A program made the translations under genes and the position numbers. Below, piece by piece: positions 23,210 through 26,944 of a stretch of 34,848 bases of DNA; position 1 is the first letter of the stretch; the number at the start of each line of letters is the position of its first letter. Source of the DNA: an uncultured Prevotellaceae bacterium (GTDB taxonomy: Bacteria; Bacteroidota; Bacteroidia; Bacteroidales; Bacteroidaceae); the NCBI GenBank assembly GCA_900314125.1, contig OMUD01000170.1, forward strand, positions 1 to 34,848, read 5' to 3'. The notes under the pieces were generated by a model. It was given only the letters and a program-made list of their open reading frames with translations. It did not search any database and had not been told where the DNA came from.

Positions 23210-24247
23210 ATGCATTCGAAAAAAAACATAGTTTTTATTGTCAACCCCATTTCAGGGACATCTTCTAAAAGAACAATTGTTAATCAAATTGATAAGTATA
23301 TCGACAACCAATTGTTCGATTTTAAAGTCGTTGACACTGAATATCAGGGACATGCAAGGGAAATCGCTCAGGATGCGGTTGAAAAGGGCGTGGACATTGT
23401 GTGTGCGATTGGAGGAGATGGTACCGTGAATGAGGTGGCGTCTGCGCTTGTGCATTCTAACACCGCATTGGCTATCATTCCATGTGGATCTGGAAACGGA
23501 TTGGCCAGACACCTCAGAATCCCAAGGGATGCGATCAGGGCCATTAAACTTATCAATAAGGCGGAACCTAAACTCATTGATTATGGGGTGATGAACGACC
23601 ATCCTTTTTTCTGTACTTGCGGAGTTGGACTTGATGCGTTTATTTCACAAAAATTTGCGGAATGTGGGAAAAGAGGCTTCCTGGCTTACATAGAGCAGGT
23701 GCTGAAGTATGCCCTCAATTATAATCCGGAATTCTATGAACTGGATGTGATCAACGAGCAGTCGTCCCATGTCTCTTACAAGGCTGCGCTCATTGCATGC
23801 GCAAATGCTTCACAATATGGAAACAACGTCTATATTGCTCCTGGGGCTTCTGTGCTCGATGGATTGATGGACGTCATCATTGTAGAGCCATACAAGATGT
23901 TGGATGCCACGCAAATGGGGATTCAGATTATGAATGGCACCTTGCATAAAAACAGTCATGTCAAACGGTTTAAATGCAAGTCACTGAAAATCAAACGTAA
24001 AGAACATGGGCCCGTGCATTTCGATGGCGACCCGATGACCACGGGAGAAGTGATTGAAGTGTCCATTGTGAATAAAGGCTTGTATGTGGTTTATGATGGT
24101 AAAGAAGGAATCAGAAATTTCGGAGAATCCATACAAAACACGGTAAAGATGTATTATAACAATCTTTACATGAAGTCGGGACAGCTTATTGAGGATGGCT
24201 CCAACAGAGGCAGGAAACTTTTGGGAATTTCCAAAAGTGAGAAATAG
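23210..24247 (+). CDS. Lipid kinase, diacylglycerol/sphingosine kinase family (YegS/DgkB-like)
   Basis: ATP-dependent lipid kinase of 345 residues with the DAGK catalytic fold. VNPISGTSSKR (11-21), the nucleotide-binding GGDGTVNEVASAL (68-80) and PCGSGNGLARHL (91-102) mark the first domain. The beta-sandwich domain follows, with HFDGDP near residue 272, matching the conserved 'h.DGEp'. The family phosphorylates diacylglycerol, phosphatidylglycerol-like lipids or sphingoid bases. Because it is divergently paired with spt, a sphingoid base is an attractive substrate, but the sequence alone does not show this. The tail after about residue 305 is longer than in YegS. An ATP-grasp gene follows 46 nt downstream. 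Confidence 0.9.
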   Translation: MHSKKNIVFIVNPISGTSSKRTIVNQIDKYIDNQLFDFKVVDTEYQGHAREIAQDAVEKGVDIVCAIGGDGTVNEVASALVHSNTALAIIPCGSGNGLARHLRIPRDAIRAIKLINKAEPKLIDYGVMNDHPFFCTCGVGLDAFISQKFAECGKRGFLAYIEQVLKYALNYNPEFYELDVINEQSSHVSYKAALIACANASQYGNNVYIAPGASVLDGLMDVIIVEPYKMLDATQMGIQIMNGTLHKNSHVKRFKCKSLKIKRKEHGPVHFDGDPMTTGEVIEVSIVNKGLYVVYDGKEGIRNFGESIQNTVKMYYNNLYMKSGQLIEDGSNRGRKLLGISKSEK

Positions 24248-24293
24248 TCTTCAGGCCCGATGGCTTTTGTTTCACTGGAGAATCAATGCGACA

Positions 24294-25457
24294 ATGTTCC
24301 AAAAAATCAAAACAGACATTCGAAATCTGTATCAAATTCCGGAAACAAAGGATTTTTCACTGCTTTTTGCTTTCAATCCTTCCCACGAAATGGCGTTGGT
24401 GAGGAATTGTGCAGATTATGCACCTACCAAAAATGTGGCCATGATGGAAAAGCAATTGTGGAAACTCCCGTTCATTTGGGCGGGAGAGGATGATTGTGTA
24501 TTCAACATCGGAACTGGAGAGATTTTTGATGCTCACGGAAATAGGGTGGATGTGTCATCAAGAATTCTTATTCCTTTTCCATGGGGATGGAATCTGGCAG
24601 TCCGTGAACGGTTTCTTGAAGCTGGGATTGATGAACGTGTTATGCCTGGAGAAGGATGCCTTCAGACTCTGAGGACTTTTGCGGGAAGAAGTTTCGCCTG
24701 CGATTATATTCACGAATTGCTGTCTTCAATCCCTGCTGACATGAGGGATAGATTGGTTGGCAATCACATGAAATTCCACCAATCGGTTGACACTGTGCGT
24801 TTTGATGCTGCAATGATGATATTCAAGCAGCCATGGTCAAGCAGTGGTAGGGGAAATTTCTGCGCTGCTTCTCTCGATGAAATGACTGTTAAAAGGCTGG
24901 AGGCAAGCGTGAAAAAGCAAGGGGGATTCCTTGCGGATATATTTTATCACAAAACGCTCGATTTTGCGATGGAATTCTATGTGTTTGCGGATGGAAATGT
25001 GGAGTTCATCGGATATTCGCTTTTTCAAGCGGAAAAAAACGGCAAATACGTGGGGAATATGGTGGAGAGCCAAAAGATAGTCCGCAAGACTATAGCTTTG
25101 GCAATGGGGGGAGACAATGGACTCTTGGATGCTTTAAAAGAAAAGCATCTGGAAATGCTCCGCAGGACAGTGGCTGGTCTGTATTGTGGATTCGTGGGAA
25201 TTGATATGATGGTCGTGAATAATGAAGACCATATCTCTGTGCATCCTTGTGTGGAAATCAATTTTAGGATGAACATGGGAATTATGGCCATGTATGCTTA
25301 TTTACGGCCTTTCCTCTTTGATTTTTTGGAGGAAGAAGAGGATTCTGAAGAAGGAGCTGTCTGGCGATCATCTATCCTCGAACCACCTTCGCTGATGCGG
25401 GAACGTGGATTCCACACGGTTCTCAAATCACGCTTCATTTCCATCAGATATTCCTGA
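24294..25457 (+). CDS. Uncharacterised ATP-grasp-like protein
   Basis: A 387-residue protein I cannot name. It starts at the ATG at 24294; an in-frame start at 24189 would overlap the lipid kinase by 59 bp and adds an unlikely segment. AFNPSHEMALVRN (26-38) and PWGWN (96-100) form a conserved-looking N-terminal part. FKQPWSSSGRGNF (177-189) resembles the ATP-grasp nucleotide lysine plus Gly-rich loop. GFVGIDMMV (299-307) with HPCVEINFRMNMG (317-329) resembles the metal-binding Asp/Glu-x-Asn motif. ATP-grasp enzymes join a carboxylate to an amine, thiol or similar group. The last 53 residues, including LEEEEDSEEG (345-354), are encoded opposite the 3' end of the GHL10 gene. Confidence 0.72.
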   Translation: MFQKIKTDIRNLYQIPETKDFSLLFAFNPSHEMALVRNCADYAPTKNVAMMEKQLWKLPFIWAGEDDCVFNIGTGEIFDAHGNRVDVSSRILIPFPWGWNLAVRERFLEAGIDERVMPGEGCLQTLRTFAGRSFACDYIHELLSSIPADMRDRLVGNHMKFHQSVDTVRFDAAMMIFKQPWSSSGRGNFCAASLDEMTVKRLEASVKKQGGFLADIFYHKTLDFAMEFYVFADGNVEFIGYSLFQAEKNGKYVGNMVESQKIVRKTIALAMGGDNGLLDALKEKHLEMLRRTVAGLYCGFVGIDMMVVNNEDHISVHPCVEINFRMNMGIMAMYAYLRPFLFDFLEEEEDSEEGAVWRSSILEPPSLMRERGFHTVLKSRFISIRYS

Positions 25458-26944
25458 GTGGCTGAGCTCTCATTGCCGAAACGGTCGCTCGCGCTGATGG
25501 CATAGTATTGGTAACCTGATATGTCGGGCGTGATGCGGAGAAAAGAACCGACTACACGGGTTTTCAGGAGGTTTCGGCTTGAAGTCACATCCACTGGATA
25601 GACATTCGAGCCATAGATGTTATAGAATACATAATCATCATCATTCATTTTCATCTTCCTTTCACCTTGATCGTCTGACCCTATCCAATATAGACATTTG
25701 CCATCAACATCGTGATACAAATCTCCTGGTTTGCTTGGAGCTATGGTGTCTATACTCCAAACCATGCGTGGTGTCAGGCTGAGGGTGGGGAAGAACTCTG
25801 TCTGGGATTTGGTGTAAAGACCTTTGCAGTTGCGGGTGAAAAAATCACTGCGGTACAGTGCCACTCCACCTAAGCCTGTGTTGCGGGCGGCGTGAATCTG
25901 GCTGCGAACATCGTCGAGCACCCAGTTGCCTTCAGATGGATCCAAAAAATAAATGCCGAGTCCAGGGGCTACTGGATGGCCATATTGGTGCTCACGCCAG
26001 TCATACATGAAAGGGAAGAAATTGTCACCTTTGAAGTACATCATTGGAAACAGCACATCCTGAAGATTGTCTCTCAGCCATCCTTGTGCGTCTTGATACA
26101 CAGCGTCATAGCTGTTCCAACCCTTCGAACTGTAGCGGCTCAGGTCACGGAACTTTCCAATAGGAGAACTTGACAGTTTCACCCATGGCTTGATGGGCTT
26201 GACCGTGTCGTGGATTTTCTTCACTATCCGCGTGATGTTCTGGCGGCGTTCCGAAGCGCTGCAGTTGTCTGAATAATTATAGACTTTTTCAGGATAGCGG
26301 ATATAGTCGAGCGATATGCCGTCTATGTCGTAATTCTCACACAACTCTTTGCATATCGAAGCCACATAGTCGCTGGTCGATGGGTTGTCGGGACGCATGA
26401 AGATGTTGTCGCCTGCGGATTTGCAAAGTTCTGGGTGACGGCGGGTGATGGAGGAATTCCCAAATCCACGTTGTTTTTTGGTGTCACCCAGGGGAATGGT
26501 CACGAGCCAGCAATGTAGTTCCATGCCGCGGCGGTGACACTCATAAATGGCGTAATGGAGAGGGTCATAGCCAGGATCTTTGCCGGGGGTGCCGGTCAGG
26601 CATTCGTCCCAAGGTTCTATCTTCGAAGGATAAATCACAGAACCACGGATACGTGTCTGAAGTATCACTGTGTTGATGTGGGCGGCTTGAAGCTGGTTCA
26701 AGATGGTGCACAGCTCGCGTTTCTGAGCTTCTATGCTCTCTTCGTCTTTGGCTTTCGTCTTTGGCCAGTCCAAACTCATGATAGTGGTCAGCCATACGGC
26801 ACGGATCTCTTCCTTTGGATACTGAACTGTGGTCGTCCAAGGATTGGTGTTGCCTGCTGAAAGAGTAGTGTAGGCTTGACCTTTGATTTCTTGTGCTGCA
26901 AGACACAATAAGGCCAATATGATGATATGGGAAATCGATTTCAT
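25298..26944 (-). CDS. GHL10 (DUF187) family glycoside hydrolase-like protein
   Basis: Secreted protein of 548 residues with a signal peptide (MKSISHIIILALLCLAAQEIKG, cut probably near residue 22). The TIM-barrel GHL10/DUF187 domain starts with EEIRAVWLTTIMSLDWP (45-61). It has NTVILQTRIRGSVIYPS (91-107), YDIDGISLDYIRYPE (205-219, Asp213 a likely catalytic acid) and VLFPMMYFKGDNF further on. A fibronectin-III-like domain (about 415-505) ends in ASDRFGNESSATQEYL. The Ser/Lys/Arg tail of about 40 residues is low-complexity. Relatives such as B. subtilis YngK are linked to cell-wall or peptidoglycan glycans, but activity is not settled. The 3' end overlaps the convergent ATP-grasp gene by 160 bp. 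Confidence 0.87.
   Translation of the reverse strand: MKSISHIIILALLCLAAQEIKGQAYTTLSAGNTNPWTTTVQYPKEEIRAVWLTTIMSLDWPKTKAKDEESIEAQKRELCTILNQLQAAHINTVILQTRIRGSVIYPSKIEPWDECLTGTPGKDPGYDPLHYAIYECHRRGMELHCWLVTIPLGDTKKQRGFGNSSITRRHPELCKSAGDNIFMRPDNPSTSDYVASICKELCENYDIDGISLDYIRYPEKVYNYSDNCSASERRQNITRIVKKIHDTVKPIKPWVKLSSSPIGKFRDLSRYSSKGWNSYDAVYQDAQGWLRDNLQDVLFPMMYFKGDNFFPFMYDWREHQYGHPVAPGLGIYFLDPSEGNWVLDDVRSQIHAARNTGLGGVALYRSDFFTRNCKGLYTKSQTEFFPTLSLTPRMVWSIDTIAPSKPGDLYHDVDGKCLYWIGSDDQGERKMKMNDDDYVFYNIYGSNVYPVDVTSSRNLLKTRVVGSFLRITPDISGYQYYAISASDRFGNESSATQEYLMEMKRDLRTVWNPRSRISEGGSRIDDRQTAPSSESSSSSKKSKRKGRK

Follow-up and report, generated by a model that had tools for sequence, protein, structure and literature searches.

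Two genes in an uncultured Prevotellaceae bacterium run into each other tail to tail, and both of their reading frames stay open through the same DNA. Do both frames encode protein there, and if so, which of the two messages was written first? The window, meaning the whole stretch of 34,848 nucleotides that was analysed, makes up the whole of contig C292 in a 2.74-Mb draft genome (323 contigs, 84.8% complete). Within it, an open reading frame on the forward strand (24189..25457) and one on the reverse strand (25298..26944) overlap by exactly 160 bp (25298-25457), and both stop codons lie inside this overlap. The earlier note had claimed such a tail-to-tail overlap, and its extent and the sequence ends are as described there (Table 1). 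The shared DNA reads YLRPFLFDFLEEEEDSEEG... in the forward (ATP-grasp) frame and ...SSESSSSSKKSKRKGRK in the reverse (GHL10) frame; the C-terminal ends of the two proteins are ...LEEEEDSEEGAVWRSSILEPPSLMRERGFHTVLKSRFISIRYS and ...QEYLMEMKRDLRTVWNPRSRISEGGSRIDDRQTAPSSESSSSSKKSKRKGRK, respectively. Taken alone, the 160-bp overlap in this one genome would fall short of proof, since a GHL10 frame facing a fixed ATP-grasp protein with random synonymous codons would stay open there by chance with a probability of 0.24.

Table 1. The convergent gene pair of the window and the features of its shared DNA.
Feature	Position	Strand	Basis and remarks
Tail-to-tail overlap	25298..25457	.	160 bp; phase (123:213), third positions opposed; same phase in 12/12 genomes
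ATP-grasp-like protein, 387 aa	24294..25457	+	ORF; 3' end within overlap; model and Foldseek
GHL10 (PF02638) protein, 548 aa, with C-terminal beta domain and basic tail	25298..26944	-	ORF; Pfam; Cwp19 profile match
Disordered ATP-grasp loop, residues 343-368	25320..25397	+	modelled pLDDT <50; mostly facing the GHL10 basic tail
ATP-grasp C-terminal beta-hairpin, residues 373-386 (putative older message)	25410..25451	+	model and relatives' sequences
GHL10 residues 497-548, putative overprinted tail: VWNPRSRI motif, then Ser/Lys/Arg-rich end	25301..25456	-	501-548 predicted disordered
ATP-grasp stop TGA	25455..25457	+	faces conserved GHL10 Gln codon (CAG); TGA in 12/12 genomes
Weak terminator-like hairpin within the ATP-grasp gene	24917..24934	- (GHL10 strand)	364 nt beyond the GHL10 stop

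The ATP-grasp gene likely starts at the ATG at position 24294, within the longer open frame 24189..25457. Upstream of this ATG (24189-24247) the frame is open, via a TTG start, into the end of the neighbouring gene (23210-24247, labelled by eye as diacylglycerol-kinase-like). The same upstream extension is present in G004; this openness is probably fortuitous.

The model of the ATP-grasp protein has a mean pLDDT of 84.8, and its top Foldseek matches are the ATP-grasp peptide ligases 8ynd/8ynq (best E 2.5e-9, 13-15% identity), with a query TM of 0.31-0.46 among the 50 matches listed. A search for Pfam families found none at E<=0.001, and the score with the NCBIfam model LdmS was 18.9 bits, below its cut-off of 475. 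On the other strand, the GHL10 domain PF02638 is recognized by Pfam with an E-value of 5.4e-45, and a profile built from seven GHL10 relatives matches the structure of Cwp19 (5oq2) with an E-value of 1.3e-95. Cwp19 is described as a demonstrated lytic transglycosylase (PMC6016235), and the GHL10 protein is probably a secreted peptidoglycan-cleaving enzyme; its putative export was judged by eye from a hydrophobic N-terminus, and its C-terminal beta domain looks FN3-like by eye. A second, distant GHL10 protein (G000:C143:1261-2697, L066; 30% identity) is encoded in the same genome, and its match spans residues 34-500, so that it stops before the tail region.

We then asked where the two folds end relative to the shared DNA. 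The earlier note had placed both fold ends near or before the overlap, which is correct for one of the two proteins. In GHL10 the last predicted strand (492-497) ends where the overlap starts, at residue 497, so that residues 497-548 are written in shared DNA; residues 501-548 have pLDDT <50 and are modelled as disordered, in a model of modest quality (mean pLDDT 65.3, from seven sequences). For the ATP-grasp protein the placement does not hold, since two modelled strands (373-378 and 381-386, pLDDT about 74-80) form a hairpin inside the overlap.

To learn how far the overlap extends among relatives, we examined the gene pair in other genomes. In g1, the genus of the window, and in a related genus, g53, every genome with both genes adjacent carries the overlap (12/12: 9 of 13 genomes searched in g1, 3/3 in g53). 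Overlap lengths are 160, 166, 151, 157, 169, 178, 178, 178 and 151 bp in g1 and 169, 172 and 172 bp in g53. All lengths, which range from 151 to 178 bp, equal 1 modulo 3, and the phase is consequently a single one, (123:213), in which by base positions the third codon position of one gene lies opposite the third codon position of the other. The ATP-grasp stop is TGA in 12/12 genomes, facing the conserved Gln of a QE pair in GHL10. ATP-grasp matches occur in 9/13 g1 genomes and GHL10 matches in 12/13, with close GHL10 orthologs in those same nine. In the four other g1 genomes (G002, G007, G009 and G012, 56-81% complete), which were excluded from the 12, neither an ATP-grasp match nor a close GHL10 ortholog was found. 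The ATP-grasp gene of G011 is divided between two contigs, and its 3' end alone adjoins GHL10. Homologs of each gene also exist outside the pair: ATP-grasp relatives were found in 36 of 61 relatives searched and in 296 of 399 family genomes (E<=1e-25), and GHL10 homologs occur in other genera besides g1. Judged from these sequences, the overlap is real and conserved and both frames appear to be protein-coding.

Outside g1 and g53 the arrangement differs. The overlap is found in 0/11 genomes of genus g15 that have both genes in the fetched stretch; in 8/11 the two stops are separated by 0-11 bp and in 3/11 the genes lie 1.6-2.2 kb apart. Near-exact abutment is seen, for example, in L104 (3429-3435), L151 (4841-4842), L137 (4865-4868) and L146 (4845-4847). 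In two genomes of genus g21 the genes are separated by 151 and 254 bp; here (L135 4093-5109, L136 3985-4971) the ATP-grasp protein ends just short of the hairpin and GHL10 has a long Lys/Ala/Pro-rich tail, an arrangement that is possibly an escape from the overlap or an alternative to it. Among more distant genomes, some have overlaps (7, 7, 7, 18, 44 and 70 bp), so that short overlaps of the two convergent genes recur in distant relatives, and others have gaps (108 and 511 bp); in L006, also distant, both genes lie on one strand. At many loci, including all those of g18 and g20, a GHL10 match was not found within the fetched stretch.

The distribution of the two protein ends suggests which message is the older. 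The C-terminal hairpin motif of the ATP-grasp protein (GFxA...GKLxI) is also found in g15, g18 and g20, genera without the overlap, and the hairpin end without an overlap (LTPKREHGFEAKLENGKLQIIYKQ in L004) can be compared with that of g1 (LSPKREHGFQASVEGGKLVITFCS). Because the hairpin is shared with genera lacking the overlap, the ATP-grasp end appears to be the older message and the GHL10 tail the overprinted one. The earlier note had suspected overprinting of at least one tail, and this suspicion is supported for GHL10; the converse candidate, an overprinted ATP-grasp tail, was rejected on the same ground. Distant relatives have an ATP-grasp C-terminus of another, longer form, and the protein has no hairpin in the two g21 genomes. 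The distance from the ATP-grasp EINxR motif to the C-terminus is 61-89 residues in 12/12 overlap genomes versus 11-59 residues in 38 genomes from g11, g15, g18, g20 and g21, five related genera (distant relatives are not in this count), with no value common to the two groups. The loop modelled as disordered (residues 343-368) lies within this lengthened stretch. LEEEEDSEEG is lineage-specific; in phase (123:213), Ser codons yield Glu/Asp codons on the opposite strand.

Read antisense in phase (123:213), GFQA becomes AWNP and GFNA becomes ALNP, exactly the motifs that GHL10 has in g1 and g53, so that the AWNP/ALNP motif is the antisense image of the ATP-grasp hairpin. Among the GHL10 proteins compared, this tail is restricted to g1 and g53. 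The last 20 GHL10 residues contain 6-10 Lys+Arg in 12/12 overlap genomes, a content that antisense windows elsewhere in ATP-grasp genes reach in 0-4.7% of cases; in G000, G004 and G010 (3/12), however, the GHL10 body itself contains a 20-residue stretch at least as basic as the tail. The GHL10 tails of g15 are also basic, without an overlap, and basicity was therefore retained or regained.

When did the overlap arise? In a GHL10 tree of 32 rows, overlaps longer than 100 bp need a single change, and g1 and g53 group with support of 72/60 when the tails are kept; with the tails cut off (row L110, which has no motif, was left uncut) support for this group is 52/34 and the overlap still needs one change. 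Most simply, the overlap arose in the ancestor of g1 and g53. An older origin, ancestral to a clade that includes g15 and g21, would imply that these two genera escaped from the overlap, for instance through a duplication of the shared segment that left each gene with a separate copy. The nearly touching stops of g15 with their basic GHL10 tails, the missing hairpin in the two g21 genomes and the low support of the tail-free tree are all consistent with such a history, and g21 and g15 could fall among g1 and g53 in the GHL10 tree. However, an older overlap needs more changes on the best tree, and the tails of g15 carry their own INVxxLINR motif, in which no match to the antisense hairpin is visible by eye in the alignments. 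We consider an older origin rather unlikely.

An open frame is not necessarily a used one, and the GHL10 tail might be a neutral read-through shadow, merely open opposite an ATP-grasp end that alone is functional. Such a shadow would agree with the presence of the hairpin in genera without the overlap, with the mirroring of GFQA in the conserved AWNP motif and with the predicted disorder of the tail. It would also agree with the sizeable chance, 0.10-1.0 per genome, that the GHL10 frame is open when the ATP-grasp protein is fixed and its synonymous codons are random. Over the 12 genomes the product of these chances is 2.6e-5, or 3.4e-5 when codons are shuffled instead, values that are not strict probabilities because the genomes are related. 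The corresponding products for the ATP-grasp frame given GHL10 are 0.15 (resampling) and 1.7e-4 (shuffling); since this frame would mostly be open by chance (0.15), openness alone tells little about ATP-grasp.

Codon choice and similarity argue against a mere shadow. The Phe of GFQ/GFH is encoded by TTC in 9/9 g1 genomes, where TTT would place a TGA in GHL10, and TTC accounts for 0.36-0.84 of Phe codons in those genomes. In g53 the next codon is Asn, there is no TGA risk, and the Phe is TTT in 1/3 genomes. With the ATP-grasp codons resampled, the similarity of the GHL10 frame over the last 32 codons gives z = 12.8 (11 of the 12 genomes, G011 excluded) versus -1.3 to 6.7 in eight upstream blocks of the same phase, and z = 11.2 versus -0.7 to 3.4 in eight g1 genomes. 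However, reading this block in the other antisense phases also gives raised values (z 4.5 and 8.3). In the reverse test, with GHL10 residues fixed and all 12 genomes included, the ATP-grasp frame gives z = 7.8, whereas 14 control blocks, the last of which enters the overlap by three codons, give 0.8 to 4.5; the nine g1 genomes give 5.6 versus 0.0 to 4.6. Control blocks of this reverse test reach z 11.0 in another phase, so that z is comparable within one phase only.

The phase itself offers a sharper measure, which sorts third positions by the frame in which they are silent. In the last 33 codons and over all 39 within-genus pairs, which are not independent of each other, transversions are found at 44/89 third positions that are 4-fold degenerate in both frames. 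Over the same pairs in the overlap the counts are 23/211 at positions 4-fold in ATP-grasp only, 8/70 at positions 4-fold in GHL10 only and 0/88 at positions 4-fold in neither. Outside the overlap, defined as all alignment columns except the last 60 and possibly including a few loop codons, they are 872/2017 at ATP-grasp and 2139/5622 at GHL10 4-fold sites. Sites that are 4-fold in both frames do not differ from those outside (p = 0.27), whereas protection is seen at sites where a change is silent in ATP-grasp yet alters GHL10. We repeated the comparison on two sets of five pairs, chosen so that no genome occurs in more than one pair of a set, and the contrast within the overlap was then weaker. 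For the GHL10 frame, one-sided p was 0.035 and 0.12 when the doubly 4-fold sites of the overlap served as reference, and 0.0008 and 0.003 when the reference was the ATP-grasp 4-fold sites outside it. For the ATP-grasp frame, p was 0.17 and 0.20 within the overlap and 0.07 and 0.06 against sites outside. The half of the overlap that holds the loop and the basic tail contributes few sites, with transversions at 1/13 doubly 4-fold positions.

These computations establish the anatomy of the overlap, its conservation and its phase, and within the aligned last 32-33 codons, which the selection evidence covers, they demonstrate purifying selection on the GHL10 frame. For the ATP-grasp frame the signal is weaker and suggests purifying selection, in agreement with the conservation of the hairpin in genera without the overlap. 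Together with the basic tail present in all 12 genomes, the protected sites, the GHL10-frame similarity and the invariant TTC make a neutral shadow improbable.

An alternative is that the shared DNA persists not because of the protein ends but because the two convergent mRNAs regulate each other as antisense RNAs. The convergent layout would permit this, and GHL10-strand terminator-like hairpins lie within the ATP-grasp gene in 3/3 g53 genomes, 44 nt beyond the GHL10 stop, and in 3/9 g1 genomes, at 97 nt in two and at 364 nt in the window. In g53 (L118, L120, L123) the hairpin is AGGGATGGACAACAGTCYGTCCCT followed by T-rich sequence, within ATP-grasp coding sequence. Such positions would give overlapping transcripts, the hairpins being consensus matches only. 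Against regulation as the reason for the overlap, protection tracks amino-acid degeneracy class, which RNA pairing does not predict. Moreover, the hairpins are not common across g1 (none was found in that region in the other six genomes), and the window holds five terminator-like sites versus a mean of 3.6 (sd 2.1) in shuffles, which is not above shuffles. A terminator shared by both genes in the overlap was also rejected, as no terminator-like site was found within the overlap of the window and such hairpins are scattered elsewhere. Antisense regulation is not needed as an explanation, and we regard it as very improbable. As for a faulty assembly or sequence in which a stop codon was lost, a draft of 323 contigs might harbor such a fault, and the earlier note had thought that orthologs without the overlap would point to an assembly error; but 11 other assemblies (eight other g1 genomes and all three of g53) agree with the window in overlap, phase and stop position, and we reject such a fault as practically excluded.

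The reading that we favor with good confidence is that the convergent overlap is genuine and conserved, that both frames are coding, that the ATP-grasp end is the older and that the GHL10 tail is overprinted. We infer the following order of events. In an ancestor, most simply that of g1 and g53, the 3' end of GHL10 would have extended into the antisense of the ATP-grasp end, so that its last beta domain now leads directly to a flexible tail whose first part is the antisense image of the hairpin. The Lys/Arg/Ser-rich last part would have been written opposite a disordered loop inserted in frame in the ATP-grasp protein. The overlap may be tolerated because order is paired with disorder, the hairpin with a disordered linker and the disordered loop with a disordered tail, and because third positions are opposed, so that a silent change in one gene is often silent in the other. 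The basic flexible tail could plausibly act as an electrostatic tether, holding an exported wall enzyme near the anionic cell envelope.

We tentatively extend this reading of an overprinted GHL10 tail one step further. The two protein ends may have co-evolved as one object, in which the ATP-grasp loop mainly holds the GHL10 basic tail and stop on the other strand and the hairpin is the template of the GHL10 linker. Neither gene end could then move without damage to the other, and the pair would be entangled across genera. We offer this extension as a possibility somewhat short of an even chance.

The pair provides a natural test set, with 12 genomes that have the overlap, relatives that do not, and a phase that sorts silent changes by the frame affected, to which structural models add order paired with disorder. 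A way in which two proteins may share DNA is suggested here, where one is folded, the other is flexible and an inserted loop provides the space. Methods for finding overlapping genes might be benchmarked on this pair.

In prokaryotes, long overlaps have often proved to be annotation errors (PMC2478687). As reported there, a survey of 338 genomes found 178 convergent overlaps longer than 60 bp, of which 124 were judged misannotations and 54 possibly real, most of these 54 being conserved only in very close species (Palleja et al., 2008). The ATP-grasp/GHL10 pair resembles the long overlaps described in that survey in being convergent, the sole orientation in which it accepted long overlaps, in exceeding 60 bp and in having homologs for both genes; unlike them, it spans two genera and offers third-position evidence for both frames. 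Phase (123:213) is reported for 18% of 1218 convergent overlaps of at least 5 nt, the rarest of the three phases, and the phases are said to even out in very long overlaps (Lillo and Krakauer, 2007; PMC2174442). Our pair shares the opposed third codon positions of that class, but holds the phase at 151-178 bp. Long conserved convergent overlaps are thus a known, rare kind, of which this pair is unusually long and well conserved; among the matches listed in our searches of the overlap and antisense literature, none by title concerned it. Finally, laoB and asa of EHEC are described as antisense overlapping genes, and laoB as having arisen by overprinting (PMC5810103, PMC6294744). They have in common with our pair a protein message antisense to another gene. 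However, laoB and asa as described are short novel genes, whereas in our pair overprinting appears to be confined to the C-terminal tail of one long, conserved gene.
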